A stretch of DNA of 64,000 nucleotides from Tridacna crocea (taxonomy: Eukaryota; Mollusca; Bivalvia; Cardiida; Cardiidae). The translations under genes were made by a program, and so were the position numbers. Below the pieces are notes generated by a model. The model had not been told where the DNA came from and searched no databases. It was given only the letters and a program-made list of their open reading frames with translations. Where the stretch lies: contig OX031061.1 of NCBI GenBank assembly GCA_943736015.1, forward strand, positions 62,874,192 to 62,938,191, read 5' to 3'. Of the stretch, positions 15,106 to 42,100 are shown piece after piece (position 1 is the stretch's first letter; every line of letters begins with the position of its first letter).

Positions 15106-15168
15106 TTAAAAGACTGGAATCTTGTCTCTTCTGATCATCATAATCTCATCGTCCAGAGTGAATATTAT
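15106..15168 (-). CDS. SIDT: SIDT exon 20 (C-terminus and stop)
   Basis: 63 bp, residues 637-656 and TAA. It encodes [18 protein letters not shown], matching the C-terminal LTLDDDL...RRDQIPVF of vertebrate SIDT exactly at its end, so the protein is complete at this side. Acceptor TTATTTACAG. Confidence 0.95.
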   Translation of the reverse strand: MIFTLDDEIMMIRRDKIPVF

Positions 15169-18100
15169 CTGTAAATAAGAAAGAAAAATAAAAACAAGAG
15201 GGCCAAGATGGCCCTGGATCGCTCACCTGAATTCCTGACAGAACCATAGCCATTTCTTTCAAAATGTAATCAGCCCTTTCAGAGTAGAAGAATTTTTAAG
15301 AATTTCTTCATGTCTGTATAGTGTAAATAGTCTATAGTCATCAGAGCCATGTTTCTTGATGGATCAAAATTTCTAGAGCAAAGTTTTGAAAGGGTTAGCA
15401 AAGAAACATTTCTGAGAAATTATTTCAAAATCTGATCAGACATTTCAGAGAAAAAGAATTTCTTCATGGCCAAATAGTGCAAGTAGCCCCCATTCACCAG
15501 AGCCATATTTCTAGACAAATCAGTATTTTGTGAACAATTTTTGGAAAGGGTTACCGAAGGAGCATTTCTGTGAAATTATTTCAAAATCTGATCAGAGAAG
15601 AAGAATTTTAAAGAATTTCTTCATGACCATACAGTGCAAGAAGCCCCCATTCACCAGAGCCATATTTCTTGATGGATCAAAATTTCACAAACAATTTGTT
15701 AAAAAGGGTCATTCAAGGAATATTTCTGTGAAATTATTTCAAAATCTGATCAGCAATTTCAGAGAAGAAGAATTTTTAAGAATTTCTTCATTTCCCTATA
15801 GTGCAAGTAGCCCCCATTCACCAGAGCTGTGTTTCTTGACGGATCAAAATTTCACGACCACTTTTCGGAAAGAGTCATTCAAGGAACATCTCTGTGAAAT
15901 TATTTCAAATTCTGACCAGCGGTTTCAGAGAAGAAGAATTTTTAAGAATTCCTTCATTTCTATATGGTGCAAGAAGCCCCCATTCACCAGAGCCACATTT
16001 TTGATGGATCAAAATTTTGCGAACAATTTTTGAAAAGGGTCACCCAAGAAACATATCTGTGAAATTATTTCAAAATATGACCTGTGGTTTCAGAGGAGAA
16101 GATTTTTAAAGAATTCCCTAGAAAATTCCATTTGGTTGCCATGTCAAGCACAGTTTTTGATGGAATCAAATTCTGTGAACAATTTTTAAAGAGGACCTCC
16201 CAAGGAACATTCCAGCCAAGTTTGGTCCAAATTGGCCCAGTGGTTTAGGAGGAGTTGATGTTTAAAAGAATTGTTGACAACGCTTGACAACGTTAACCCT
16301 CAGGCTGCTAAGCGAGACTCAAGGACCTTTAGCAGACAGCGTCGATTAAGATCAGACTACACAGAACGTGCAGTCTGTTGATCAGATACTGGTTTTACAC
16401 AGCCCAACAAGGAGATGTCTTTTCCTAAAACATTCTTTTGCAACAACAAAGTTTTTACAATTGCCTTGAAAGTTTCATTTCACTTATTAAGCAAGGTAAA
16501 TCACTTTTACCAGCATCTTCTCATTTTCCCGCTTCGAAAAGTGTCTTTCTGACCGTCATTAAAGGTTGGCATTGTGCTGTTTAACCCATTACTACACGAT
16601 CCCTACTTTTGACGCCCCTGAGAAAGAAGCCTTTTGAAAACACTGTGGGAAAAGGAGAAAATGCTGGTAACCAGCATTTTCTCCTTTTCCCACAGTGTTT
16701 TCTAACCTTCCCAGAACAAATTTCAATTTTTCAGTCACTTTTATTTTGTCGTCTGCAAATGCTTTCAATTTGGACCAGTCTAAATTTTTCTTGTGTGGTA
16801 ATGGGTTAAGAAATAATCTCCTTTCTTTTGCGCTATATCGTTTAAAGTTGTGAGTTCTGAAGCACAGTAAATACTTCATGAGGGCAATAGCTTGAGTTGT
16901 TTATTCATTGCACCTCATCAATCACAATGTGGTTCATTGAAAGATAAACCACGATAGAAAGAAGGTTATTTGGATTCTAACATGACCAACTCTAAATGAA
17001 AGGAAAACGAGTTTATATGTACAGTAAAAACACGGATGCAAATTAAATTCCATTGAATAATTTTTTATACAGAATGATGTCACTCTACATGGGCGGATCT
17101 AGATATCTTTCGGGGGGGGGGTCCCACCGAAAACGTCATATTATATGATACTTTGGTTTCCGGATTTCAGTGGATGTAAGCCGTTTACAAGAAAAGTAAA
17201 CGTTTTCAGTTCTAACCATGAGGAGGTCTCCACATTTAGAACCTTTTTTTTTTAAATTTATGACTGTATTTTACATAAATGCTGTGCAATATCAAACCAG
17301 CACCATTTCACGAGTCCGATAATCACATTTTTGCCAGAATTCCAGGAGGCGTCCGGACCCCCCCTCTGGATCCGCCCATGCTCTATATTAAATAACGTAG
17401 ATTTTTACCATGATTTCGTTTTGTTTAGAGCTGATTTCACGTGTCATGTTAGAATAATAATTAACCATTACCACACAATCCCTACTTTTGACGACCCTGA
17501 GAAGGTAGCTTTGAGAAAACATAGTGGGAAAACAAGAAAATGCTGGTAACCAGCATTTTCTCCTTTTCCCACAATGTTTTCTACCCTACTGGAAACAAAT
17601 TTCAGTTTTAGAGTTACGTTTATTTTGTCGTCTGCAAGTGCTGTCAATTTAGACCAGTCTAAAATTTTGTCGTCTGGTAAAAGGTTAAACACTTACCAGG
17701 AAAGAGAAGAACAAGCTCATAGCAGACAGGAAGTGCCACACGTCATGGGTATCATAAAATTGAAGGATCACACAATCCCGATTTCTGTTACGTGATTCTG
17801 CAGGTGATAACTGAAAAATAAAGAAGTCGTGTTTTGTTGAAAAGGAGCTCAATGCATTAACACAAAGCATAGCACTCCACGCATACAAACCTTGGTTGAA
17901 ATTTTTTGCTATCAGTAAATTTTCTACATGTCCGCAGGACCAGTGTTCTTCTTTATTCAGTTGGTTTTTGGACAAAATTGATTTTTTATGGATCCCTAAT
18001 TCAGTGATGAAATAATGGGTAAAAGATTATGAAGTCCTGTTGACCCTTTACTCCATAAATACTCATTTCTACACATTGCTTGTAGGAGCCTTTGGAAAAC

Positions 18101-21100
18101 ATTGTGGCAAAAGGTGAAATTGCTCGTGACGAGCAATTTCACCTTTTGTCACAATGTTTTCTATGCTATCAAAAGGTGTCATATACACATAAGAAACGGC
18201 TTCATCCTTGCTGTTATTTAGAGTCAATTAGAGATACCATAGAAATGCCTTATGGGGTAAAGGGTTAAGGTCCCTTCTGCTCGAGCATAACCCATTTATG
18301 AAGAGGGATGTGAAGGATGAGCCTCTCTCAAATTTGCTGTCTGAAAATCCTTTCAATTTGGATCGGTCTAGTATTTGTCATTTGAGTACTGTGTTAATCA
18401 TCACAAAGCTATAAAATATACATACTAATCCTACAAGGCAAATTGTTTTAATCAAAAGCTTTCTACAATCACATTTAATCACTCCTTAATTGGGTAGTCA
18501 ACAATGTGGGGAAAAGGAGAAAATGCCAGTAATCAAAGGCCTCCTCTCGCACGGTCCTTGAAAGTTGGGATTATGTGACAGTTTTCTTACAGAAGACAAG
18601 TTTGTACAACTGACCATTTGCCATTGCAATGGCTTTAAATAAGTGTAGTTTTAGGCATGAAAAATAACAAGAGGACCAAGATGGTCCTGTATCGCTCACC
18701 TGAGTACCAAGCTGTAAAATCAAACTTGTGACCCCTGGGTAGGGCCAGTTTTGACCCCAAGGGCATCCTAAGAACAAAACTTGGTAGAGGTCCACTTGGA
18801 GATGCTACATACCAAATATCAAACCTCTGCACCACCTATTTTCAGAGAAGAAGAATTTTAAAGTTTTCTTTCTTTTGTCCTATGATTCAAACTTGTGACC
18901 CCCGTGATGGGACCAGTTTTGACCCCAGGGACATCATATGTACAATCTTGCCAGAGGTCCACTAGGAGATGCTACATACCAAATATCAAAGATTTATACC
19001 TTCTAGTTTCAGAGAAGAAGAATTTTGAAGTTTTCCTCCTTTGTTCCTATGTTTCAAACTTGTGACCCCCGGGGCGGGGCCAGTTTTGACCCAAGGGGCA
19101 TCATATGATCAATCTTGGTAGAGGTCCACTAGAAGATGCTACATACCAAATATCAAAGCTCTGCGCCTTCTAGTTTCAGAAAAGAAGAATTTTGAAGTTT
19201 TCCTTCTTTGTTACTATCATACCAATTTGTAACCCCCGGGGTGGGGCCAGTTTTGACCCAAGGGGCATCACATGAACAATCTTGGTAAAGGTCCACTAGG
19301 AGATGCTACATACCATATATCAAAGCTCTGCGCCTTCCTTCTAGTTTCAGAGAAGAAGAATTTTAAAGTTTTCCTTCTTTGTTCCTATCATACAAACTTG
19401 TGACCCCGGGGGCGGGGCCAGTTTTGACCCCAGGGACATCATATGGACAATCTTGGTAGACGTCCACTAGGAGATGCTACATACCAAATATCAAAGCTGT
19501 ACACCTTCTAGTTTCAGAGAGGAAGAATTTTGAAGTTTTCCTCCTTTGTTCCTATGTTTCAAATTTGTGACCTCCGGGGCAGGGTCAGTTTTGACCCCAG
19601 GGGCATTATATATAAAATCTTGGTAGAGGTCCACTAGGAGATGCTACATACCATATATCAAAGCTCTGCGCCTTCTAGTTTCAGAGAAGAAGATTTCTAA
19701 AGTTTTCCTTCTTTGTTCCTATCATACAAACTTGTGACCCCCGGGGTGGGGCCAGTTTTGACCCCAGGGACATCATATGAAGAATCTTGGTAGAAGTCCA
19801 CTAAGAGATGCTACATACCAAATATCAAAGCTCTGTACTTTCTAGTTTCAGTGAAGAAGATTTTCAAAGATTTTGCTATTTTTTTCCTTTTGGTTGCCAT
19901 GGCAACCAGAATTATGGCTGGAATTCAATCTCTTGAACAACTTTGGTAGAGCTTCACCCAAGGAACATCCATGCCAAGTTTCATCAAGATTGGCCCAGTG
20001 GTTTCGGAGAAGATGTTTAAAGAAATTGTGGACGACGGACGACGGACATTGGGCGATCACAAAAGCTCACCATGAGCACTTCGGGCTCAGGTGAACTAAA
20101 AAGTATCATATAATTTAACTTAAGAATGACAAATGAGAAATTTTACCTGCGTATATGTAAGATGTAATTGGAAGAAATACAAGGCAAATCCCCAGGTTAT
20201 TATTGATAGGATGATCAAGGCAATCGTTAGTTTTGGTATCTTTTCTTTTGCTTGATACTAAAACATGACAATTGAAAAGTAGATAGTCACTACATACTGG
20301 GAGGGTTACTTGACAAAATGTAGGTTTTAACTGATTTTAACCCTTTACTCCATAGATACTCATTTCTACGCATTGCTTGTAGGAGCCTTTGGAAAACATT
20401 GTGGCAAAAGGTTAAATTGCTCCTGACGAGCAATTTCACCTTCAGTCACAATGTTTTCTATGCTATCAAAAGGCGTCGTATACACATAAAAAAAAGTTTC
20501 ATCCTTGCTGTCATCAAGGGTCAATTAAAGATACCATACAAATGTCTTATGGGGTAAAGGGTTAATTTTTTCTTTCAACTCATTACCAAACATCAAAATT
20601 TTAGGTTTGTCCAAATTGAAAGCATTTGCAGACGACAAAATAATGTGACTGAAAAATTGAAATTTGTTCTGGGAAGGGTAGAAAACACTGTGGGAAAAGG
20701 AGAAAATGCTGGTTACCAGCATTTTCTCCTTTTCCCACAGGGTTTTCAAAAGGCTTCTTTCTCAGGGGTGTCAAAAGTAGGGATTGTGTGGTAAAGGGTT
20801 AACTGAGTTTAATTTTTTCTTTCAACTCATTACCAAACATCCAAATTTTAGGTTTGTCCAAATTGAAAGCATTTGCAGATGACAAAAATAAAAGTGACTG
20901 AAAACTTGAAATTTGTTTTGTGAAGGGTAGAAAACCATGGGAAAAGGAGAAAATGCTGGTTATCAGCATTTTCTTCTTTTCCCATAATGTTTTCTACAGA
21001 CTTCTTTCTTAGGGTCATCAAAAGTAGGGATTATGTGGTAATTGGTTAATGTTTTACCAAGTAGTAAAATTTTCAACTTCTCTAAACAGAAATGACAAAT

Positions 21101-24100
21101 CAAATGCTGGTAACCAGCATTTTCCCCTTTTCTCACAATTTTTTCAGACCAGTTCTGACTGTGGGGAACTTGTCTATGATGTTACAAAACATTGTTGGGA
21201 AAGGACAAAAAATGCTGTTTACCAGCATTTTTCCCTTTTCCCACAAATTTTTCCAAAAAAACTTCCCACTGAGGGCCACTAATTTCGGGATTGTGGAATA
21301 AAAGATGAAATGCCCAATTGCCAGCAAAAAGAAACAAATCATGAATTTAAATTAACCCATTACCACACAATCCCTCCTTTTGACGCCCCTACGAAAGAAG
21401 CCTTTTGAAAACAATGTGGGAAAAGGAGAAAATGCTGGTAACCAGCATTTTCTCCTTTTCCCACAGTATTTTCTACCCTTCCCAGAACAAATTTCAATAT
21501 TTCAGTCACCTTTATTTTGTTGTCTGCAAATGCTTTCAATTTGGACCAGTCTAAAATTTTCTCGTGTGGTAAAGAGTTAAAATGCAGACAATTTTAATTT
21601 ATACAATTTAAAATTATGTTTCTTATTTTGAGTCTAATGTGTTACAGTATATTTTGTCGAATTTCAAGATGCTTGCAGAAAAACAAATAATATTGTAAAA
21701 CTAGAACCATAGTTGCAAATTTCATTTCTATTAATTTTGTAAGATTTATAATGCACTTTAAAAAGTCTGAAGAAGTTTCAGCTGGATTACACCTTAAAAT
21801 GGCAACACAAATACACAAATCCTAACCAGCCGATTAGCTCAGTAAGTAGAGTGTAGGACTCGCGAACACAATGTTTTGGTTCGCTACAGGTTGTGGGTTC
21901 AAATCCCCGGCTGACCAACTAAAATTACTAATAGTCTTTCGGATGAGACATTAAACCGAGGTTCCGTGTGATGGTGCTATACGCTGAGCACGTTAAAGAA
22001 CCAGGCGAAGCTCTCAGTAGTTTCGACCTGTATCCTTGCAATATTTCCAATAACAACTAAACCGTCTTCTGGGGGTGTCGCTCAGATGGGCAAACGGTAG
22101 TGATGATGAATAAACGGAAATAACCAACCAACACAAATTCTAGCAGCCTTCACAGCTATTGATCACTTACATGTTAGTTTAACCCGTCAGTACACATCAA
22201 AATTTTAGACCTATCCAACCTAATAGAGTTTGAAGATGACAATTTCACAGTGGCTTAAATGAGGTAATTTTTCTTTGAAAGGGTAGAAACTTTGTTGAAA
22301 AAGGAGAAAATGCCAGTTACCAGCATTTTCTCCTTTTCCCATAATGTTTTAGAAAGGCCTCTTCCTTAGGGTCGTTAAAAGTTATCATTGTGTGGTAAAG
22401 CTAATAATAAAAATCTGACTGAAATGAAGAAATTTATACTTGAAAAGGTAGAGAGCATTGTCGGAAAAGGAGAAACTGATGGTTACTAGAAATTCTTCCT
22501 GTTCCCACAATGTTTTCAAAAGCCGTCTTCCTCAGAATCATCACAAGCAATTGCAGACAACAATTTACATGTACATGACACTCAAATAAAGAAATTTTTC
22601 TTTTATAGGATGGAAAACATTGTGGGAAAAGGAGAAAATGCTGCTTCCCAGCATTTTCTGCTTTTCCCACAATGTTTTTAAAAGGCTTCTTACTCAGGGT
22701 TTTTAAAAGTTATCATTGTGTGGTAATGGTTTAATTTAAGCAAAAGGTTTAAAGGTCAACTTACCTTAGCTACTACATAAAAAATCGTGTAAAGCACTAG
22801 GTTGACAATGAAAATCGCAAGGAGAAAGGAAGCAAAATCAGACTTCGTTTTATTGACAAAACAGTAGATGGCTCTGTGCAGGGAAGAAAGAATAAATACG
22901 AGGGAAAATAATTATTAGGTGGTTGCTGCAAAGTCTGAGGACAGATTCCCACAATGAACCTAGACTAAGCTACTAAAATTTAGACTAGTCCATCGAAAGC
23001 GTTTTGTAGTAGAGAACTTACATGTAAATGTAACTTATTAGTGATGGGATTTTTCTTTAGAAAGGGTACAAAACATTTCAAGAAAAGAAAAAAGAGAAAG
23101 AGCTGGTTACACGCACTTTCTACCTTTCTTAAAATGATTACAAATGTCCCTGATGATAATGAGTCTTACAAACCCTGAGGTAGAGGACTTTTGAAAACAT
23201 AATGAGAACAGGAGAAAATGCTGGTAACCACTGGTCTTTATACCACTGTGTTTTCTACCCTTTCCTAAACAAATATCATCACTTAACTAACTTTAAAACT
23301 GACATTTGCAATTCCTATCAAGATTGAAGATTAAGAAGAGATCTGATTTCTCTCTTGCAGAAGGCTTTAAAATCTATTCATTACATAACTCTTTACCAAA
23401 CGACAAAGTTTAAACTTGTCCATCACAGCTTCAGATAGAGAGAGTGATTTTGATTTCAAAATTAGAAATATAATTTATTCTTATCGAAACCAAATGTTGT
23501 GGGTACTCATTAGAATAGTCTCATTGAGACGATTCTAATGAGTACCCACAACTTAGGGTTTTGACAAGAAATAACAGATTTAGCAAACCATCACTCCCTC
23601 TTATCTAGAGCTCTGTTGTCCACATTGAAATCATTTGCAGACAACACAAGAAGTGTGTCTCAAAAATTACAATTTGTTCTTGAATGGGTAGAAAACTTTG
23701 TCAGAATAGGGAAGAAAATGCTAGAAATAAGTGTTTTCTCTAATTTGCGTATTATTTTCAATGCACTACTTCTATGGAGCAATTAAAACTCAAGATGGTT
23801 TGGTACAGGTTTAAATATCAACTTATGCAAATTGTGTTTTGCAATAATGTTTCCAGTCTTCTGCTGCAAGAATATTTCTAGAAGGCAATATGTAAGTGAG
23901 CTAGTTTGATTAATAAACCAAAGTTCGATGAAGTTATCTCAGTTGGTTCATTTTCACCCTCTACCATTTGAAGAAGTTTTGAATCCTGTATGAATCTGAG
24001 GCATCCAGGATTTTGATGGAAATAACAACCCTAAAAATGAAGGCTTTTGAAGATAATTGGAAAAAAGGAGAAAATACTGGTCACCAATATTTTCTCCTTT

Positions 24101-27100
24101 TCCCACACTGTTTTCAAAATCTCATTCTCTTCAGAGTTGTTAAAACTCCACATTTTTCAAAGAAGATCAATGGGAGAATGAGTCTCAGTCTGAAAATTGC
24201 ATGTTGCACATTTCCAGTTTTCAGGAAATTTTTCAGTACAATAACAGCAAAACTGAGGTAGAAGTTTAAGACAAATGTACACATGAGAACGTCAACATTT
24301 TTTCTACAATATAATATAGAGAATTCTTTAAGCACATTTAGTCGGCTGTAAATGCTTTCCTAGAGATGATAACATGTAATTAGCAAAGGGATCTATGAAA
24401 AATTGCAATAGTAAAGGAAATATTGTGATAGGTGGGGGCTGGATTTGTTTTTCTGGATTTGTTTATCTAACGGGTAGAATATTTTCAGTGTCTAGCTCAA
24501 CATATGACTCCTTCCTGTTGGCATCCAATATAAATTCTTTTAATTTCCAAATAGACCATTATCAAATAACCCATTTTTTTTTTCTTGACTTTTTGGATGG
24601 TGGCTTAAAAGAACAAGAAGACCATGATGGTCCTATATTGCTCACCTGAGTGCTAAGCAGTAAATGTCTACAATGAAAATTCTTTTTTTCCGAAAAGATC
24701 ATCGTATCATATTTGGTAGAGGTCCACTAAAAGATGCTACATAATGAAATACATGTATCAAAGCTCTACGATTTCCAGTTTCAGAGAAAAATTTTCCTTC
24801 TTTGTTCCTATGTTTTGAACTTGTGACCCCCGAGGCTGGGCCAGTTTAGACCCCAGGGACATCATGTGAACAAACTTGGTAGAGGTCAACCAGCAGATGC
24901 TTCATACCAAATATCAAAGCTTTACTCCTTCTTGTTTCAGAGAAGAAGATTTCTAAAGTTTTCCTTCTTTGTTCCTATGTTTCAAACTTGTGACCCCAAG
25001 GGCGGGGTCAGTTTTGACCCCAGGAGCATCATATGAACAATCTTGGTAGAGGTCCACTAGGAGATGCTACATAATAAATATCAAACCTCTGCCCCTTCTA
25101 GTTTCAGAGAAGAAGATTTTTAAAGTTTTCCTTCTTTGTTCCTATGTTTCAAACTTGTGACCCCCGGGGCTGGGTCAGTTTTGACCCCAGGAGCATCATA
25201 TGAACAATCTTGGTAGAGGTCTACTAGGAGATGCTACATAATAAATATCAAACCTCTGCCCCTTCTAGTTTCAAAGAAGAAGAATTTTAAAGTTTTCCTT
25301 CTTTGTTCCTATGTTTCAAACTTGTGACCCCCGGGGCTGGGCCAGTTTTGACCCAAGGGGCATCATAGGAACAATCTTGGTAGAGGTCCACTAAGAGATA
25401 CTACATACCAAATATCAAAGCTCTGCACCTTCTAGTTTCAGAGAGGAAGAATTTTAAAGTTTTTGCTATTTTTTTCCCTTTTGGTTGCCATGGCAACCCC
25501 AGAGTTATGGCTGGAATTCAATCTCTTGAAGAACTTTGGTAGAGCTTCACCCAAGGAACACCTCTGTCAAGATTGGCCCAGTGGTTTGGGAGGAGAAGAT
25601 GTTTAAAGAAATTGTGGATGATGGACGACGAACGACGGACATTGGGCGATCACGAAAGCTCACAATGAGTACTTCGTGCTCAGGTGAGCTCAAAATAAGG
25701 GCAAATTAGAGAAATGTTGGCAACAACCATTTTCTTTTCCTCTCCAACAAGGTTTCTTAATCTTTTGAGACACACCTAATAGGTGGTCAACAAATGGTTT
25801 CATTTCTGACCGCTTAAAAATAGTTTTCCACCATTCCCATAAATTCTCAAAATTTTAGCTACATTTAGATTGTCTGGAACTGTTCTCAATTTCCATATTG
25901 AAAAATTTTAAAGTCAGATGAAGAATTAGGTTTTGATTTAACCCATTACCACACAATCCCTACTTTTGACGCCCCTGAGAAAGAAGCCTTTAGAAAACAT
26001 TGTGGGAAAAGGAGAAAATGCTGGTAACCAGCATTTTCTCCTTTTCCCACAATGTTTTCTACCCTTCACAAAACACATTTCAAATTTTCAGTCACTTTTA
26101 TTTTGTCGTCTGCAAATGCTTTCAATTTGGACAAGCCTAAAATATTGTCGTTTGGTAATGAGTTAAGATATTGACTGAAAGTGATTTCACACTGTTAATT
26201 AAAAAAAACTTTGTGGTAACAGAAGCTAAATTTTGCTACCTGTTACTTAGCTTTTCTATATTTGTTACACGGAAGATATTCAAGATCATACTGTTTGTGA
26301 GAGGATAACAGGTAAATGGGACAACTAGCCTATACCTTAACCCTTTAGCTCATTACCAAACGACAAAATTTTAGGTTTGTCCAAACCAAAAGCATTTGCA
26401 GACGACAAAATAAAAGTGACTGAAAATTCGAAATTTGTGTAGTGAATGGTAGAAATCATGGTGGGAAAAGGAGAAAATGCTGGTTACCAGCATTTTCTCC
26501 TTTTCCCACCATGTTTTCTAAAGGCTTCTTTCTTAGGGGCGTCAAAAGTAGGGATTGTGTGGTAATGGGTTAACACACAATACAATTTTGAACATTTTGG
26601 GAAAAGGAGGAAATGCAGGTAACCTGCATTTTCTCCTTTTTCAATAATGTTTTCTATCTTGTCAAAGAATTTCAGTTTAATTCCATCATTTTTTGAAATT
26701 TTTGTCTGCAGAAGTTTTCAATTGGAAGTCTAGAATCTGTTGTATGATAATGGGTTAACAGGTAATTCAAAAAAGTTTCACCTTCACAAACATGTAAAAG
26801 ATTAAATATAGCAACAAATTGGCTATATATACAGCAAGTAGAAGAGTGGCGAAGTCTGAAGGTGCCTGAATCATTCCATACAGGGCCCTAGAAACAAAAC
26901 AGTAAACTTAAAATGAAGGAAGACCGTCAAAAATTTTGTGGAAAAAATAAAGAAAGAAAACTGGAAACAAGCATACTTTGCTGTTTCCTGAATGTTATCT
27001 AACCTTTGTAAGACAAACACCATCATTTAAACCATATTTAATTCATCTTCTTCAAAAACTTTCAAAGTGAACTAGGTTAAAATATTTGCTATTGCTTTAA

Positions 27101-30100
27101 CCCTTCAGCAGATTGCACAAGAATGCCAAAGCTTGGCAGCAGTTACTTGGATAGATAAAACTTTAAATATTCAATTTATCTCCGAATCTTAGTATCATGT
27201 TAACGACGTATATAACAAATGTTCGTGTGCATCCTACTGTTTGTGCATTTTCTTTCATGGACAGTAAATAAAAGGTGCACCTTTGTATTTTCTGCACATA
27301 TAGTAATACTGTTGGTGGGTGCTAAAACAAGCAGCACATTCTTTGGGTAGTATTAGTATAGAGAAAAAATGGATCTGTGGACTGTCACCATAATATAATT
27401 AAAATACTATTGACACGGTGTTACACACCGAACAGGCAGACAAAGGCAGGAATTCCAAGGCTGTGGAAGCTTAGCTGTTTCCATTTGCAAAAGTATTGTT
27501 GTAAAAGTGGAAATCGCTCCTAATGAACAATTTCTCCTCTTCCCACTATATCTGCTGAGCTTTCATTATCTAAAGTGACCTTTGTCCTTGTTTTGTGGTG
27601 AAATAAGCACGGATATGTGCCATTTTTATTTTTTCATATTGTTTACAATAATATAATACTGCAGGTATGTAAATTTCATGTAAAATCTGTCCGTCAGAAA
27701 GTATATATTTATAAGGAGGGACCCATTTTTCGCTAAAATTATCTCCCTTTGTCACTTAATGGTCCATTTGTAACAGGCATATTTGTACATTAACCATGGT
27801 CAAAACCAGGCTTTATATACATGTAATTTGTGCAAAACTAAATGAACTTTTACTAAAATGATGTATATTTGGATATTCTTTCAGTTTTTCTGTTTTCCTA
27901 TTAAATCAGTATTTAAGAAAAGCTTGTTAAATCCAGTTTAAGTCGAATTTTAAAAGTGTATATACCTTTTTCAAGTGCAGATTTCTCAGAAACAAGCACA
28001 GTGACCCCAATTTTTTTTTAATCTATTAAAGATATTATGAGCTTTATATGTGCAAAGATTTTAGAAAATCTGTCCAGTAGAAAAATTTGTGATATACATG
28101 TACATTGTTAACTTAACCTAATAGCAACATATATCTCCCAATCTTAATGTCCTGTTTATGTAATCAAATCAATTTATCTTCCAATCTCAATGTTGTGTTT
28201 ACTTAACCTCACAGTAATATTCAATTTATCTCCGGATCTCAAAGTCGTGTTAACTTAACCTAACAATAATATTCCATTTATCTTCCGATCTCAATATGGT
28301 ATTAACCTAACCTCACAGCAATATTCAAGTTGTCTCCCAATCTCAAAATCATGTTAAGTTTACCTAACAGTAACATTTAATTCATCTCCCAATCCTAATC
28401 TCATGTTTTCTTAATCTCACAATGATATTCAACTAATCTCATAATCTCGATGTCTTTTTCACTTAAATCCCACAATATCAAATTTATCTCAAAGTCTTAA
28501 TGTTACATTTACCTAATCCAAAAGTTATATTTAATATATCCCCCTGTCTTAATATCCTGTGTACTCAACCCCATAGTAATATTCATCTCCCAGTCTGATG
28601 TCATATTACTTAATACCACAGTCATATTGAATTTTAAGATCAAGATTATACTGTAGAGAACATTTTGCCTAGGTTAAGTTAGGTCTAAAACTCTGTTTAT
28701 TTCAATATTTTGCATTAGTTATCTAGTTTGGAGGAAGACGTCTGCAGCTTGTTTCAAGAGTTAGTAAGTCAGCAGAGTATCAGAACTAACTTAACCCTTT
28801 CCCAAACAATCCCTGGTTTTTAAAGGTCAGAAATGGATGAAGCCTTTTGAAAACATTGTGAGAAAAGGAGAAAATGCTGGCAACCAGCATTTTCTCCTTT
28901 TCCCACAATGTTTTCTAACCTACCACATAGAAAAATCATCATTTTAGCAACTGTTAATTTGTCATTTGCAAAATGCTTTCAATTTGGTCTGGTCCAAAAT
29001 TTGCTGTTTGGGAAAGGGTTAATCCATGATGTAGCTGAATAAACCAAACTGACCATTCCAGTCTAGAAATAAGACCCAGACAATTGTTATTTCAAGGTTG
29101 CTCTTACTCAGAGACTAATCAGAGCTGACAGTGTGTATCAAATATCAGACAACACATTTTGTGGCAGCTAGAATAGTGAAAAGCTCTTAACCCATTACCA
29201 CACAATCCCTACTTTTGACACCCCTGAGACAGAAGCCTTTTGAAAACACTTTAGGAAAAGGAGAAAATGCTGGTAACCAGCATTTTCTCCTTTTCCCACA
29301 GTGTTTTCTACCCTTCCCAGAACAAGTTTCAATTTTTCAGTCACTTTTATTTTGTCGTCTGCAAATGCTTTCAATTTGAACCAGTCTGAAATTTTGTTAT
29401 GTGGTAATGGGTTAAAGGTTTAAAAGTTAATTTCTGAACAAAAGTAAGAACCCAATGCAACAAGTTCTCTGTAGTCTAATCTTGATCTACACGGCCAAAG
29501 AAACCACTGTGAGTCATAGTTTACAGTTTAAAAGTTGCTACTTATCATTTAAAACCCAAGAGACACACCCAGGCAAGTTAGACATGATTCGTAAGAAATG
29601 TACTTACAAGCCCCAATTTACTGCCAGTCCAATGGCCAGGAGAATCAGTCGGTCCTGAAGTATAAATCACAATTACCTGATGAGATCCCCGAGTTTGTAA
29701 CGGCAGCGTTCATATTCTTTATTCACCAAAAAAAAATTTCTAACAAGGTGAAAGATTTCATCATACTCTTATTAACCCTTTCCCAAACGACAAACTTTTG
29801 GACCAGACCAAATTGAAAGCATTTGCAGACGACAATTCAACTCTTGCTGAAAAGATTATTTCTGTCTATGAAAGGGTAGAAAACATTGTGGGAAAAGGAG
29901 AAAATGCTGGTTACCAGCATTTTCTCCTTTTCCCACAATGTTTTCAAAAGGGTACTATTCCAGACCCATAAAAACCAGGGATTGTTTGGGAAAGAGTTAA
30001 GAGTTCAGGCAAGGCAAATCTACGGCATTTTTGATTTGGAACAAGAACTTCACATAGACAATTAGGAATGCCATGTGACAAAATAAAATACCTAATTGTT

Positions 30101-33100
30101 AAGTTTTTTATTCAAATTGGTATGATGAAACCATATCTGAAAATAAAATAGCCTGAATTCTTACTGACTTCATTTAACATGACCCAAGTCATTACCATTT
30201 ACATAAATAAATTTGTCCAAAATGGTCATGGAGATATTTTGTACAGATTGAGTTGCTTCCCCGTACCTTCCTCTGTATATACAACTTCGCGAATGGTAGT
30301 CCCACTTGTATTTATATACCCACACACATATTCAACAATATACTGGAAAATAGTGGAAATATACTTACAACATACATTGGTCTTGTACATCTAAACAAAT
30401 CTTGTCTGATAAAGTGATATAATCTCGATATTATATGTCGATCTGAAATGAACAAAATACAAGTAAAATGAAAAAGGTAAAACCTCAATACGAGAACATG
30501 AATGATTTCTTTAACAAATATCTAAAAATTGGAATGACAAGCTAGATCCTGAAATCACAGGGTTTTGAGTTCGAATTCTGGAGTTGGCAAAACTAATTTT
30601 TGAGCACTGTTAAAAGTAGAATGCATGCTTCTTTTGTAGATGCAGATTTATACATGTGAAATAGGGTGAAAGTCCCGGATCCTTTTAACCATAATAAAGA
30701 CAGTTCCTTGACAGTTTTGTTATAAAGGTTCAGATTCCAATAACTTGGAATGATTACTGGTTCACATATTTCTTAAGAACATTTTAAGAAAAGGTAAGAG
30801 GAAATTAACGCTCATATTTTGAATTGCATTCAAAAAGGAAAACAAGAAAAACATTCACTTTGTATAGATCTTTATAATTCCATGGAACACTTCTGACTCT
30901 CTGTAATATGCCAAGTGTCTTTAATTGCCAGAGAATCATAAGTGACTGCCACAGTTTGAAGGATTTGATTGGTGATTAGGTTGATTAGATTGTTCCAACC
31001 AATACCCCGTTGGTACTGCAGCGATATCCCATTCTTATCAAACTTGTTTCAAATCTTGATCTTTCAATATTTGGAGGTTCATGATGTTTTGTCTCAGTGC
31101 GCCCAGTTTATTTTTTCAACTATAGTTTTTACAGGGAATCAGTCAGTAGGCTGGGAAGAATATTGAGCAGAGTAAAAGAAAATCCATTTGGTTGGTTGTA
31201 TTGGGGTTTAACGCCACTTTAACAGCTAAGGTCATATCATGGCGGTCAGTGACACACATGTGTTTCCTGGCTTTCTCACACCAGTACTTACACTACTTTC
31301 TCTCCGAAGCCACCGACTACTTTTCTCACATGCTTCAGCAGAGGTGAGAGGCGAAAATATGCCGGAAAGAAAGTTTGCCTCAACCGGGTATCGAACTCAC
31401 AACCACCAGGTCATGAGTCCGACACACTCACCACTGAGCCACCCTGGCGGGCAAAAAAAAAAGAAAATCCAGGAACACACGGTAGGTGTGTAGTATTCTG
31501 AGCTATCCAACATATAGATATACATGTATCACTCGTGTTTGTATTAGGGCACATTTACTGCCTTACAATAGAGCTAGCTTTTGAATCAAAGAAGTAGCAT
31601 ATTTGCCTTAGGACCTTGCGGTCCTCAGTTCAATCCCCTTTCTGAGAAGTTCTTTGTCAGAACTGTTACAAACACAAGCCATACATTTATATATCTGTGG
31701 GATAGACCAGAATACGAGGTACTACAGGTGCACTTGCCTCAGCAATATGTATATAAACATGAAAGTGAAGAATAATGATAAGAATGATCTCATCCTGTTT
31801 CTCCCTTACAACAGAACTTCAGTTGGCCATTTAATCGTTTTTCTGTCTAAAATCTGATTATTCAGGCTCTGTTTGTATACTCAAAGAAAAATGAATACTA
31901 TATAGAGGGTATGTTTGCTTATTTTCGATGAAAGATCGAAATGTATTTCCAGTGAACATCACTGACAATATTTTCACGAGTGGTGCACCCCTGAGTGAAA
32001 ATATTACCTATGATATTCACGAGATGAAATAAATTTTATCTATTTATTTCATGTATCTCTTTTGTGGTGAGGCCTATGCTCCTACATCAAAATCCATTAG
32101 AGCTGTTTTTTGTTAATTTCTGTGGTGTAACCCCTCCTGATACAACATATTTACAAAAATTACGTACAGCACGTGAAATATTTTGCAAAGTATGTCATAT
32201 TTTCACCAGTTTGAGTGGCACACACATTTTACCAAGGTAACTCTTTCATGAGAACTAATGTTTCTGCCTTCAAATGAAGTGTTTGAAGATAAAAATCAGT
32301 ATCTTTCAATGGTCATAACCATGAAATATAAAAAAAAAATCATTTTTATTTCTCGATAAATTACTGAAAAGCATGTAATATGAAATTGGTATTTTCATAG
32401 GTCCAACTTACCCAGTCTCCATCTTCCCATATAGTACAGATGAATGCTCAACAATAAGGAGGCTAACATGTACACCAGAGCGAACAAAATCCAAAATACA
32501 TTATTACCATAAACCTGCAGTGAACCAATTTAACCATTAAATCACCTTTTTAAACTTAAGTTGCATTTTCAACAATTGTAGATCAAGATCAGACAGCACA
32601 AAACACAATCTGATTCCTGATCTACACTGTCTGCTCAGCAGAGATATTTTTAACAAAACTATTTTGAAACTGCAACTATTTGTGTCTTATTTCATGACTG
32701 AAAGATATAGAGGATATTTATTTTTTTTATCAGCGAAAGTCAAAATATATTTAATCAACTGGCTACCACTCGTGAAAATATTACCAATAACATTAACTCC
32801 ATGAAACAAATTTTGATCTTTAACTCTTTACCGAAAAACAAAATTTCAGACTTGTCTAAATTCAAAGCAGTTGTAGACGACAAATTTAAGATGACAAAAA
32901 AAGATGCCCCCAATTACCAGAGCCTTGTTTCTCTGTGGATCAAAATTTTGCGAACAGTTTTTGAAAAGGGTCATTCAAGGAACATCTCTGTTAAATTATT
33001 CCAAATCTGATCAGCGGTTTCAGAGAAGAAGAATTTTTAAGAATTTCTTAATTTCTGTATTGTGCAAGTAGCCCTTATTACCAGAGCCATATTTTTTTAT

Positions 33101-36100
33101 GAATCAAAATTTTGCGAACAGATTTTGAAATGGGTCATCCAAGGAACATCTCTGTAAAATTATTTTAAAATCTGACCAACGATTGCAGAGAAGAAGAATT
33201 TTTCAGAATTTCTTCATAGCCATATAGTGCAAATAGCCCCCGTCACCAAAGTCATGTTTTTTTGACGGATCAAAATTTCGTGATCAATTTTTGAAAAGGG
33301 TCACACAAGGAACACCTGCACTGTCCAATAAGGAGATGCTTTTCCTTAACTCTTTCCCAAACAGCAAATTTTGGACCAGACCAAATTGAAAGCATTTTGC
33401 AAATGACAAATTAACAGTTGCTAAAAAGATGATTTTTCTATATTGTAGGGTAGAAAACATTGTGGGAAAAGGAGAAAATGCTGGTTACCAGCATTTTCTC
33501 CTTTTCCCACAATGTTTTCAAAAGGCTTTGATTCCTGACCCGTAAAAACCAGGGATTGTTTGGGAAAGGGTTAAACATTACTTTGAAATAGCAATATTAC
33601 TACCCCTGTTTTCACAAAGCATGGCTCCTATGTAGCCAACAACACCTACCACTCCACAAACTGCCACAATTATAATAGCAGCCATCACTAGGTATGATGA
33701 GTGAGCCTTAGCTGTGATATCTGGATGTCTATTCTGATATATCTTCAATATACATAAACAGGCTATGATGTACATGAAGGATGTATCTGCAATGGAGGAT
33801 AGAGATACATGTGGTTAGGTTTCATCCTATATTTTCATATTTTAACCCTTTACTCCATATATACTCATTTCTAAGCATTGCTTGTAGGAGCCTTTGGAAA
33901 ACATTGTGATAAAAGGTGAAATTGCTCGTGACGAGCAATTTCACCTTTTGCCACATATGTTTTCTACACAAGGTGTCATATATACACATAAAAAACGGCT
34001 TTATCCTTGCTCTTATTTAGGGTCAATTAGAGATACCATAGAAATGCCTTATGGGGTAAAGGGTTAAGCAAAATAACTAACATCTACATAAGTGACAACG
34101 CCAACAATTTTCTATCAGTTTAGCAGAAACTTGTGTATGTCGGCTTCTCTTGATCCTGCAATAGTCAACTTAATAAAAGAACAGACTTGCTAATATGCAA
34201 AAAGAACACTTTAGAATAGGACATCTTGCTTAGCTTTAAGAGATATCTCTAAAATAGGAACATTTTGCTGATTTACAGTAGACAAATCTAAAATAGGATA
34301 GTTTGGTTATTTATAATAGATTAATTTACAATGTGATAGTTTGCTGATTGATAACAGATGAATTGATAACGGATGAATTGATAACGGATGAATTTAACAT
34401 AGGACAGTCTGCAGATATATCTTAATAGACAAATTTAATTGTATGTGTATACCTACTATTCTTGATATGTATTTTCAATCAAAGAGAGAATTATGAATAT
34501 AATAAACAGAATAATCAACTGGTGGTGTGTGATGATAGAAATCTATCACTCGTGTGGGATTTGATATTTAAAAACTTGTCCTTCAAATTCGTTTTTCAAC
34601 CCTATTATCCCCACTCCAGTGACAGATTTTTAACATCACACATCACACTCCAGGTTGATTTTCCTCTATGTTTCTGGTAACCCATAATTTTCTGCTTTTC
34701 TTGCCATATTTAAAAAAAAAAACAAAAAAAAACCAAACAAACTATCAACTGAGCCACGTTAAGTTTGGGGTCTGCAAAAGCTTTCTTGAATAGTGAAAGA
34801 AAAATGCATGTTAACATGTCAATGGGCATCTGGAATTTGATAAAATACCAATGACCACTGTGAGTAGCTCGTACACGAGAGCCAGGTCCATACTATGTAC
34901 TACTGCAGACTCAATCCCAGTGTTGTTTGTTCCTTGAGAAGGACAATTTTGTTAAGATCTTCAACAGAAGATACACTAGATCTAATACAACATTTGCTAA
35001 TATTTGTCATTTCGATTATGTTTTAAATCTGAAACTCAACCAATAGGAAAAAAGCATCTGCTTTTCCTTTCTGATCAGTCACCATACCAAGTCCAATTAT
35101 AATTTAACAAATCATTTACTGATATATGATTGGGTTTTTGTCCAGGTTAAAATGTGACTGGTGCATAAAGAAAACGATTTTAAACCCTGAAAATACATAC
35201 TGTATGTTTTCATAATGCTTGAATGCCGTAAAAAAAGGCTTCTTTCCTGTTCTGCAGAATTTGGATACCAGCGATAAAACATCTCGGAGACAATCTGGTT
35301 TTCCAGAAGGAGACAATCCAGTTTTCCAGAAGTGTAATTGGCAACCTTGCTTCGTTCTTTTCATGCGATATGAAAATTTTTCATTCGATATGAAAATTTT
35401 GTATGTTTTCTTTTGAGTTTATAAACATTACAGATGTAATCTCTTTGCATTTCTCATATTCTTTATTTCCTTCAAAAATGTGTGTGCTTTATCGCACATT
35501 ATGTAGCAATCTTTGGGCGACCTACACAATTTAGGCATGACTTGCGTAATGGCCCATCTAAAATAAACACAGAGATTACTATCATTAGGCTACCTGATTT
35601 AGACTACATGCCCACTTACCAAACTGAAAGTTAGTTACTGTAGGACAAATATGATAGCAAGCACTCATCACTCCCTCTATGCAGAGTGCAAACCCCATTG
35701 CATAGTACAGTCCATAATACTGTGGTATACCAAACAACTGAAAATTAAATTGATGTCAATTTTCACTCTAACCCTCTTCTACACCTCACCTCCTGATAGA
35801 GGGAGTGATTTTGATTTCATAATAGAAAATATTAGTTATTCTCTTCTGAACCCTATGTTATGGGTATTCATTAGAATCGTCTCATGGAGACAATTCTAAT
35901 GAGTACCCACTACCTAAGGTTTGGAAGAAAATATAACAAATTTAGAACTCCACCACTCCCTATTATCTGTAGCTGTAACTACACTATCACAAATTTTAAC
36001 CACCCAGAGAAAGGAAGGCATTTGAAGGAGAAAAGTACTGTCTACCAGCAATTTTTCTTTTTTTCCCCTCACGCTGTTTTCTGCCCTGTCAGAAATAAAT

Positions 36101-39100
36101 ACCATTATGTAAGCAGCATTTAAATAATCATCTACAAAAGTTTTCAATTTAGAAAGGGACAAATGGTAAAAAGCTTGGAATAACAAGTTATTTCATTGAA
36201 ATGATATATATTTACCGAAAAAAGCACTTTTTTGATGAACACATACAAAAGGTATTGTACCTTGCATGTACATATGGCCTTTTGCTATTTGTCCATAATG
36301 AAATTACATGTTAAGCCCACTCTTTCCATGATATGGTATTTTATTAAATGCAAAGAAAAAAAATAAGAAAATAAGAAAAAAAATAATAATGATGGTCTGT
36401 GGCATGTGATAAACGATTTAAATATGAAGTTTCATAAATTTTTGTTCAGAATTTCAAGAGATAACAAGATGGCCAAGATGGCTCAAAATCTGATTAGCCG
36501 TTTCAAAGAAGAAGAATTTTTAAGAATTTCTTCACGGCCATATAGTGAAAAAAGACCCCCTTCACTACAGCAATGATTCTTGACAAATCAGCATTTTAAA
36601 AACAGTTTTTGAAAAGGGTCAACAAAGAAACATTTCTATGAAATTATTTCAAAATCTGATCAACCATTTCAGAGGAGAATTTTTTTAAAGAATTTCTTCA
36701 TCACCATATAATGCAAGTAGCCCCCATTCACCAAAGTCATGTTTCTTCAAGGCCGTCGGAAGCGGTCCGGCCATGGCCGGACCAAATTTTCGGCCGAAAA
36801 TGAAAAATGGCCAGTCCAATTTTCGAAAAAAAAATGCGCAATATAAACCTCAAAAAATGCGCAAGAATGCACCAGAGAGCGTCTTATTTTCATTTTTTTT
36901 TTTTTTTTTCGGGGGAGCATGCCCCCGGACCCCCCTAGCATGGCTTAAATGCGTAATATTTTTCCGGGGGAGCATGCCCCCGGACCCCCTTGCATGGCTT
37001 CGCGACTTCGTCGCTCGCCATACTAGCCGGACCAAATGAAATTTCCTTCCGACGGGCCTGTTCTTGACAGATCAAAATTACGCAAACAGTTTTTGAAAAG
37101 GGTCACCAAAGGAACATTTCTGTGAAATTATTTCAAAATCTGACCAGCAATTTCAGAGGAGAATAATCTTAAGAATTTCTTTACTTCTGTATAGTGCAAG
37201 TAGCCCCCATTCACCAGAGCCATGTTTCTTGGCAGATCAAAATTTAATGAACATTTTTAAAAAGTGTCATCCAAGGAACATCTCTGTGAAATTATTTCAA
37301 AATGTGATATACTGTTTCAGAGAAGAAGAATTTAAGCATTTCTTCATTTACCAGAGCCATGTTTCTTGATGGATCAAAATTTCCATGAAACAAATTTCAA
37401 ATTTTAAGTCACTTTTATTTTTCTGTCTGCAATTTTTTTCAATTCGGACAAGCCAAAAACATTGAGTTAACAGGTTTATACAGCCCTGGAAACTACAGAC
37501 CATCACCATGTCCCACTTTATGTTTAAAAAAAATGTTTCAGTCCTGAGAGTCGGTCAATTAAACAAAAAAAAATCACGAACAGTTTTTGAAAACAGTCAC
37601 CCAAAGAGCATCTCTGTGAAATTATTTCAAAATCTGACTAGCCGTTTCAGAGAAGAAGAATTTTCAAGAATTTCTTAATTTCCGTATAGTGCAAGTAGCC
37701 CCCATTCACCAGAGCATTGTTTCTTGATGGATCAAAATGTTGCCATGGAAAAAGTTTTGAAAAGTGTCATCCAAGGAACATCTCTGTGAAATTATTTTAA
37801 AATCTAACAAGCTGTTTTAGAGAAGAATTTTTAAGAATTTCTTTATACCGTATAGTGCAAGTAGCCCTCATTCATCAGAGCCATGTTTCTTGACGGATCA
37901 AAATTTCATGAACAACTTTTCAAAAGGATCACCAAAAGAGCATCTCTGTGAAATTATTTCAAAATCTGTCCAGCCGTTTCAGAAAAAAAGAATTTTAATG
38001 AATTTAATAATTTCTTAAAAGTGCAAGTAGCCTCCATCCACCTGATCCTAGTTTCTTGACAGGTCAAAATTTCACAAACAGTTTTTGAAGAGGGTCACCC
38101 AAGGAACATCTCTGCGAAATTATTTCAAAATCTGACCAGTGGTTTCAGAGAAGATTTTTTCAAGAATTTTCTAGAAAATTCTATTTGGTTGCCATGGCAA
38201 CCAGAGTTTTTTGATGGAATCAAATTCTTTGATCAATTTTTAAAGAGGACCTCCAAAAGAACATTCCAGCCAAGTTTAGTCCAAACTAGCCTAGCGGTTT
38301 AGGTGGAGTTCATGTTCAAAGAATGCAAGAACGCACTGAGGCACTATGGACGAAGGACAATGGACAACAGGTGATTCTCAAAGCTCCCCTTGAGCATGTT
38401 GTACTCAGGTGAGCTAAAAAAGGAAATAAATGTGAAGCTCCCCCTCTTTTAATTTTTTAATAGAAACATATGAGATACTGCGAGTTAATTTTAAATCATC
38501 ATGTAAGCATTATAGACTCACTTTATGCCTCCCCTGGCTTGTTAATTTGACTCTGTCATGCAACTTTTCCCTGAAAGAACAAATTAATTAATAAAATAAA
38601 GAGCTAGTTAATTTGAAAATAAATACAATGTATCTCAAAACAAGAGGGCCATGATGGCCCTGTATCACTCCACTGGCTTTTTAACCCTTTACCACACACA
38701 TTAAAGTGTTCATGACCCTGAAAAAGAGGGCTTTTGAAAACAATGAACACTGTCAGGCATATACAAGCAGGTTTAGTCATTTGCATGAAAGGTAAAGTTT
38801 TTAGAAAAAAACCTGAATGACAGAAATCTTACTTTGAAATTAAAATTCCACTATGTATGCATAACTTTTAACATCAAAATGAATCACTCTCTCTGAAAAC
38901 AGAATATTTTCTATAAAAAAACTTAAATATCTGGCATCAATCATGTATAACTGCAGTTTGATAATCAAAGGAAACATGATTTTTTTTCATTTTTGTTGCC
39001 ATGGCAACCAGAGTTTTTGAAGGAATCAAATTCTTTCAAGAAATTCTGAAGAGGACCATGGCAGGATTATTTCTGTGAAGTTTCATCAAATTTGGATGGG

Positions 39101-42100
39101 TAGTTTCAGAGAAGATGTTTGAAATAAAAGTTAACACACGTATGCATGCACGATGGACACCAAGCCATGACATAAGGTCGCTGGCCTTCGGCCTGTAGAG
39201 CTAAAAATTATCTGTCTTTGCAGTGGGAGAGAACATCCCAAGAAAGAGACCTTTGAAAATGTTGAGGGAGAAGGAAAGAATGCTAGTAATCAGCATTTTC
39301 TCCAATCTTTTCTACCCTATCAAAGACAGAAACCAGCATTAGAGCTCCATTTAATGTGTCGTTTGCTTATGCTTTCAGTTTAGTCAAGTCCAAAATTTTG
39401 TTGCTTGGTCAAGACTTAAAGGTGGGTATTAAGAATTTATACATCTCACCAAATTAAAAAATATCTATATCAATGAAATTCATATGAAAAAATATACAAA
39501 TCATCACTAAGATTTATATAATTACAAAAAAGAATATGTAGCCTCTTAAGGTATTTTTAGATTTTGCGCCAAAAATCAACAAAGCATTTTGGGAATGTCA
39601 AGTGACTGGCACCTGACTCATAATGCTTAAATTCCATTACACAACAAACGCGTACTAATTACTTTCCATAATGTCTTCTTTGTACGCTATGTTTGAAACT
39701 TTGTGTATTCCTGTATGTAAATGAGCGAACTGACAATCTAAAAATAGAATGTGACTCCCTTTGGTGTCAACCTGGGCCATAGTAAAGCTCTAATTTCTCG
39801 TATTGTTAGATGGTTTTTGACTACTGGGGTTTATGAATAAAAATTAAAAGGCTTTGTTGGTATAAGGATGATTTTTTTGCATTTTTGTAAAAATTTCGTC
39901 CCACAATCTGAAGGGCCACCTTTAACGAACAATGTCATGGGAGAACTAAATGCTAAGTTCTGTTAAAGTTACTTTTAGCATATTAGTTATTCATTTTTTC
40001 CAGAGATTAGTTTAAACAACAAGAGCACCAAGATTGCCCTGGATCACTGACCTTAATTTTTTAGAGGACTATAGCCAATAGTTGTTTGAGGTATAGAAAC
40101 TTTGGAAACAAAATCATTATTTTGCAAAGCAATTTTGATAAGGTCACATGTAAAAGTCATGTAGAGCCATGTTTCTCAATGGATCAAAATTTCGCTGATA
40201 ATTTTTTAAAACGGTCACACACGGAACATCTCTGTGAAATTATTTCAAAATCTGACCAGCAGTTTCAGAGGGGGAGATTTAAAAAAAAAAAATCTTAGAA
40301 AATTCCATTTGGTTGCCATGGCAACCAGGGTTTTTGATGGAATCAAATTTTGTGAACAATTCTTAGAGAGGACCTCCCAAGAAACATTTAAGCCAATTTT
40401 GGTCCAAATCAGCCCAGTAGTTTAGGAGGAGAAGATGTCTAAAGAAATTGTTGACAGACGACATATTACAGGCGATGGACACAGCGTGATCGTAATTGCT
40501 TCCCTTGAGCACATTATGCTCAGGTGAGCTAAAAAGAGTTCTACGAAAGATCAACACAATAATGGATTATATAGAGGATATTTGTTTTTTTTCGGTGAAA
40601 GATCGAAATTTATTTCATTGAGTGAACACCATCAGTAATATTTTCATGAGTGGTTGTGCCACTCGTGAAAATATTACTGATGGTGTTCACGAGATGAAAT
40701 AAATTTGATCTTTCACCGAAAAAAAACCCCCAAATATTCTATATATTTCATGCTTTTAACCCTTTCTGGGAGGAGCTTTATCAAAATCCAGTACAGTTCT
40801 TTTCTGTTATTCCCTGTGGCGTACCCCTCCTGCATAGCAATGCATTACAATATTACGTCAAGCACGAGAAATGTAAGGTATATGACGTCATATTTGCCAT
40901 CTGGTTGTAAGGCACGCGCAATTTACCTAGGCAAGAAGAACGTGAAAATTGGTATTTTCACTGGTTGTACCAGTGTAAGATCGAAAAATATTTTCACTGC
41001 TATTTCTCGATATCCTACCGGAAAGCATGAAATAAAGCATTACCTTCTATAGACCAACATAAGGAACAGTATGCCCAGTAAGACATAGCCAATGTTGCTG
41101 AATACATTGTTGAAGGCACTGACAGGACCAAGTCTGTGAGAACAGAGGGAGTTGTAATAACAAATGTCTTGATTTCCCGTAAAATTGAGGACCTGTAAAT
41201 ATATAAAAGTGATTTTGAGAACCTATTAATATAATCATAATTATTGTAACAGAGGACCATAAAATACCATGAAACTTACAAAGAAGTTATTATGTATTTA
41301 GCTTTAGGGACAATATGAACAACATGAAGTTTAGAACTTATGATCAATAAAGTGATTTCTGAGGACTCATGATTAATGTAAACAAGATAGCCCTGGATCG
41401 CTCACCTGAACTTTTGAGGGGACAATAGCCAATTTTTTGAGGTATTGAACTTCGGAAACAAAACCATTATTTTCTCAAGCAATTTTGAAAAGGTCAACTT
41501 TAAAAGTCATTTCAAAATCTGTCATCACCCTACAATCCATGCCACAGCAAAGATTTTGACGATTCAGAATTCCGCAAATAAATTTTGGGATAGGTCACAC
41601 ATGGGCAATTTCTTGAAGAGCACATGTTCCATTGTGACTAAAAACAAGTCAAACAAGAGCACCACATGCAGGTGCCAACAACTGGCCGTTGTTTTTCGAT
41701 GAATTAAAATTTTGATAACAATTTTTAAAAAGGGTCACCCTGGGTATATTTCTGTAAAATTATTTCAAAATCTGAACAGCCATTCCAGAGAAGAAGAATG
41801 AGAAATTCCTCTTCATGCCCCTGTAGTACAAAAAGTCCCGACCACCAGGGCCATGTTTCTTGACAGATCACAGTTTATTTTAGCAATGTTTGAAAAGAGT
41901 CACTCACAGAACATTTCTAATTATTTCAAAATCTGACCAGCAGTTTCAGAGAACAAAATTTTTTCAGAATTTCTTCATGTCCATACATGTATATTGTAAA
42001 TAGCTCACAGCAATCAGAGCCATGTTTCTTGACAGATCAAAATTTCTCAAACACCCTTTGAAAAGGGTCACCAAAGGAACATCTCTGTAAAATTATTTTG

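Follow-up and report, generated by a model that had tools for sequence, protein, structure and literature searches.

Voltage-gated channels, for example, have tandem-duplicated, mutually exclusive exons both in human and in fly (PMC9741552, PMC5740500). In a human survey (PMC5740500), 377 clusters of mutually exclusive exons (60%) are reported to contain exons whose length is not divisible by three, so that including both exons is non-functional. In the SID-1 family, the connection between lipid hydrolysis, sterol binding and RNA uptake is not settled. The genome of Tridacna crocea has a SIDT gene in which exon 17 occurs in two versions, 17a and 17b. Judged by their sequence, these are very probably an old tandem duplicate of a single SIDT exon, kept by selection as alternatives of which one is used per transcript. 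The analysis covers one window, a 64-kb stretch of a T. crocea contig, and was extended to the 1.05-Gb genome (31 contigs) where copy number was at issue.

The initial annotation had recognized a SIDT gene in this window, and this identity is borne out by matches to the profile PF13965 (SID-1_RNA_chan) and by alignment with human SIDT1 and SIDT2 chains. Nine of the eleven PF13965 matches in the genome lie within the window, all on the minus strand, and six of those nine score above the family cut-off. The matches in the window fall on several exons, in order and on one strand, as in a member of the SID-1/SIDT family. Among 14 control genomes, the same profile has matches in one and none above the cut-off. 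The two genome matches outside the window (C3 and C11) are below the cut-off; in six-frame view the frames around them are broken by stops and have no recognized SIDT motif. Profile positions 1-38 and 37-66, which would represent the N-terminal extracellular part, have one exon match each, and the 5' part of the gene, upstream of the exon model, may lie beyond the window.

The exons were assembled manually, guided by homology to human SIDT2 and by splice signals, and the model runs from 41192 down to 15106 (Table 1). Exon numbers are counted outward from the 16-18 of the initial annotation. Exon 11, the second among the eight best similarity candidates, was picked on its splice sites. In an alignment of human SIDT2 with a 242-residue concatenation of pieces from the window, the zinc-site residues S, H, D, H and H are supplied by SACYH, DTSFMY and HDVWH; the roles of these residues are described in PMC10272179. 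These ligands are all in constant exons (at 35620, 33650 and 17697), outside the segment that is swapped between 17a and 17b.

Table 1. Modelled SIDT exons and the repeat copies that bracket exons 17a and 17b, in positions of the window.
Feature	Position	Strand	Content
Exon 10	41044..41192	-	TM2-TM3 loop and TM3 region
Exon 11	38522..38570	-	Small, tentative; similarity score 20 (weak)
Exon 12	35620..35737	-	Zinc-site Ser and His (SACYH)
Exon 13	33650..33786	-	Zinc-site Asp at start (FQF|DTSFMY)
Exon 14	32412..32514	-	TM7 region
Exon 15	30369..30442	-	74 nt; TM7-TM8 loop
Exon 16	29608..29654	-	47 nt; most of TM8; ends in split-codon TT
Exon 17a	26782..26887	-	106 nt; TM8 end, loop, TM9
Exon 17b	22765..22873	-	109 nt; alternative TM8 end, N-K-T sequon loop, TM9
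Exon 18	20147..20257	-	111 nt; TM10 region
Exon 19	17697..17810	-	114 nt; two C-terminal zinc-ligand histidines (HDVWH)
Exon 20	15106..15168	-	Last coding exon; TAA at end
Palindromic repeat copy	26337..26573	.	Complementary to 29187-29423; pair brackets 17a
Palindromic repeat copy, part	26344-26573	.	Complementary to 21352-21581; pair brackets 17b

The span 22765-26887 first proposed for the pair is exact: its lowest position is the lower boundary of 17b and its highest is the upper boundary of 17a, both on the minus strand. The lengths of 106 and 109 nt given there for 17a and 17b, both 1 mod 3, are correct. The two exons also share their phase in and out, as had been proposed, with entry in one phase and exit in phase 0. 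At the 16/17 junction, the split codon becomes TTG if 17a follows and TTA if 17b does, and either one encodes Leu. The chains 15-16-17a-18-19-20 and 15-16-17b-18-19-20 each form one open frame with a common C-terminus and a natural stop. The two premature stops predicted in the initial annotation were both found where it placed them: when 17a is joined to 17b, the eighth codon of 17b is a TAA, and when 16 is joined to 18, the TAA is the eleventh codon past the junction, with the split codon included. The reversed order (17b and then 17a) likewise shifts the frame, and its stop comes later. Among the five joins (17a alone, 17b alone, the two in either order, and neither), a full-length protein is obtained from one exon at a time. 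Since both exons or neither shift the frame, exclusivity is built into the reading frame, and at this level 17a and 17b are mutually exclusive.

All splice sites of 17a and 17b are GT-AG. The two exons are adjacent, homologous, similar in length and in the same frame, features that were used for screening mutually exclusive exons in PMC5740500. The introns 16-17a, 17a-17b and 17b-18 are 2720, 3908 and 2507 nt long, and with these lengths and ordinary GT-AG sites there is no steric reason for exclusion; splicing could join or skip both exons. By a rough score made from approximate consensus frequencies, 17b ranks first both among the 12 acceptors and among the 11 donors that were modelled. Exon 17a is tied fifth among the 12 acceptors and tied ninth among the 11 donors on the same rough scale (AAG|GTGAAA). 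The view that both exons have good splice sites therefore applies more readily to 17b than to the donor of 17a.

The peptides of 17a and 17b are identical at 18 of 35 residues, in agreement with the "about half" estimated earlier. Against the solved SIDT1 and SIDT2 chains, the match extends along the full 35 residues for 17a, with a best E of 9e-7, and along the final 26-27 residues for 17b, with a best E of 6e-4. On PF13965, 17a covers positions 465-499 with 24.4 bits and 17b covers 469-499 with the higher score of 28.4 bits; both are below the family cut-off of 28.7, which is unsurprising for a 35-residue piece. Human SIDT2 and SIDT1 share 20 and 19 of 35 residues with 17a, and 18 and 16 with 17b. 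Seventeen columns are invariant in 17a and the two human proteins, and 17b keeps 13 of these; the four that it loses include a Gly and a Pro in the stretch formed by the end of TM8 and the loop.

Codon positions 1, 2 and 3 are identical between 17a and 17b at 20, 30 and 7 of 35 codons, and only four of the 18 identical residues use the same codon. A dN/dS comparison had been suggested for 17b, and it was made on the 17a-17b pair: over 35 codons, a short stretch for such a ratio, dN is 0.37 (NG86) or 0.43 (ML) and dS is saturated (17.9 by ML, not computable by NG86, and without a value by LWL85 and YN00). In 5000 neutral simulations, which started from 17a and ran under a simple substitution model until the observed 48 nucleotide differences were reached, none kept 18 residues (maximum 16) and the frame stayed open in 17%; with divergence fixed in this way, the simulations address the absence of protein constraint and not the age of the copy. 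Together, the saturated third positions, the conserved protein and the outcome of the neutral runs argue for 17b as an old exon under selection; it looks neither fresh nor decaying. There is good evidence in the sequence that the pair evolved under constraint at the protein level.

These data also bear on two other explanations. If 17b were a relic, a duplicate that was formerly used and is now rarely or never spliced in, its slightly greater distance from human SIDT2 and SIDT1 would fit, but a relic with saturated third positions should hardly have an open frame, its kept residues and the top-scoring splice sites of the modelled gene, and this explanation is improbable. It is likewise quite improbable that one of the two exons acts mainly as a poison exon, whose addition to the other shifts the frame and lowers SIDT output via nonsense-mediated decay. 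The early stop in the 17a-17b join is what such a device would use, yet a pure poison exon does not need conservation of the protein, and the agreement at second as against third codon positions points to just that. A poison effect could be a side effect of the exon switch. The preferred explanation, two retained alternatives of one exon, would mean that T. crocea probably makes two forms of the SIDT membrane protein.

Exon 17 is the sole doubled one of the 11 exon positions when the 12 exon peptides are searched against the 64-kb window with tblastn. The 17a and 17b peptides match each other (E 4e-8 and 1e-9), and for the other 10 the best second match has an E of only 0.036. In the genome, the 17b peptide has four matches, namely 17b itself, 17a (E 0.013) and two others with E >2. 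The 340-residue spliced protein has 12 matches, of which ten are at the SIDT locus; the other two have E values of 0.93 and 1.75. Searches of the 1.05-Gb genome, the one animal genome covered, with PF13965, with spliced proteins of 171 and 340 residues and with the 17b peptide found no second SIDT locus, although such searches have little power for exons that are short and divergent (a query carrying 17a finds 17b at only E 0.04 to 0.36) and a very divergent SIDT paralogue could escape them. Prokaryote genome contigs and viral contigs, scanned for stray animal DNA, gave 285 and 162 pattern matches, and no relative was confirmed among these.

Large animal genomes often contain tandem gene copies, and the second exon might on that account belong to a second SIDT gene, partly duplicated or dead, nested in the first. 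However, exon 17 is alone in being doubled in the window, against 10 other exon peptides searched there, no further SIDT locus was found in the genome, and 17b sits between exons 16 and 18 in the proper order and orientation. A nested second SIDT gene is thus largely refuted, and has a very slight chance of being correct.

Among the 25 longest of 160 inverted repeat pairs in the window are pairs that bracket 17a and 17b (Table 1). Inverted repeats of this kind are a lead for splice control through RNA structure and may be background, because the element, a MITE-like palindromic repeat of about 230 nt, occurs whole or in part at 53 places in the 64 kb. Examples of this repeat are at 25924-26166, 26345-26587 and 29187-29423. 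Tandem arrays of a unit of about 167 nt, with similar units, are present at 18720-19888 (7 copies) and 24788-25463 (4 copies), and in intron 16-17a a 52-nt unit is repeated 5.7 times in a tandem array that is degenerate (28169-28466). The stretch 21826-21918 looks tRNA-like by eye and is perhaps a SINE head, with no ARAGORN call. No Rfam families (at gathering score) and no tRNAs were found in the 64-kb window.

The swapped segment consists of the last turn of TM8, the TM8-TM9 loop and TM9, a helix that borders the zinc-hydrolase cavity in human SIDT1 and SIDT2. The TM7-TM8 loop of SIDT is described as cytoplasmic (PMC11137008), which places the TM8-TM9 loop on the extracellular/luminal side. 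The two exons are most divergent in the TM8 end and loop, with two of nine residues identical as against 16 of 26 in TM9. The stretch IQ-APSDF of 17a is replaced by VNKTKSDF in 17b, with one residue gained. The change gives 17b an N-K-T glycosylation sequon in the outer loop, which 17a lacks and which the initial annotation does not mention. The sequon is on the side where glycosylation occurs, and its use is doubtful in so short a loop.

In human SIDT2, the cavity is formed by TM3-6 and TM9-11, and the zinc site is about 6 A from the extracellular/luminal side (PMC10272179). The same structure report gives a shift of about 3 A, relative to TM10, for M709 (TM8) and S716 (TM9) between the cryo-EM structure and the AlphaFold model. 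In chain numbering these are the seventh and fourteenth residues of 17a, both within the swapped segment. At the position of M709, 17a has Q, and 17b has N or K according to the placement of the gap; at that of S716, 17a has T and 17b has S. For SIDT1, TM5-9 are described as a mobile lipid-binding domain (PMC11208740), and a ceramide-like density touches TM3-5 and TM9-11 (PMC10879482). According to the SIDT2 structure report (PMC10272179), no path for conducting nucleic acid can be discerned, and the protein has a zinc-dependent ceramidase activity that is slow. In view of this, the word "channel" used for the SID-1 family in the initial annotation is debatable.

It is possible to outline how the switch may work. 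One SIDT exon would have been duplicated in tandem long ago, and selection would have retained both copies as alternatives. Transcripts with both exons or with neither would be removed or useless, and the full-length protein would come from 17a or from 17b, probably with a bias by tissue or stage. By comparison with the human structures, the swap would leave the zinc site intact and change the TM8 end, the outer loop and TM9, helices that adjoin the lipid cavity and appear to be mobile. The two forms may then differ in the opening of the cavity, in lipid or sterol preference, or in coupling to RNA uptake. The changed positions of TM9 are not concentrated on any one face of the helix (p 0.38), so the sequence does not point to the cavity side in particular; from the human structures we infer that the exon switch may make the lipid cavity open differently or change access to it. 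A more specific version, with tissue-specific forms that gate the cavity differently, one suited to lipid or sterol handling and the other to RNA uptake, and with N-K-T N-glycosylated in 17b, is unlikely as a whole.

Among the matches listed in a search of the open-access literature, there is no report of alternative exons in the transmembrane region of a SID-1 family gene. This type of splicing is already known, and for the SID-1 family it is apparently new. If both isoforms are made, they represent a clean natural swap of 35 or 36 residues beside the catalytic cavity with the rest held constant, a natural experiment able to separate lipid hydrolysis, sterol binding and RNA uptake. Among known proteins, human SIDT1 and SIDT2 come closest; they belong to the same family and have the same TM8-loop-TM9 segment and the same zinc-site residues in neighbouring exons. 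The five SIDT chains listed among the matches of 17a have a single version of the segment per protein, and 17b adds one residue and N-K-T. ADIPOR and ACER3, the CREST hydrolases, have seven TMs, unlike SIDT, and are compared through published structures. SIDT TM9 is the counterpart of ADIPOR1 TM5, a helix that differs between the closed and open forms, but the conformational change of SIDT1 differs from that of ADIPOR1 and centres on TM5-TM8 (both as described in PMC11137008). Unlike mutually exclusive exons that have been confirmed by reads, 17a and 17b are known here from genomic DNA, in a gene of the SID-1 family. Like the alternative exons of voltage-gated channels, they are tandem, homologous, of the same phase and of similar length, and they lie inside a folded membrane domain.
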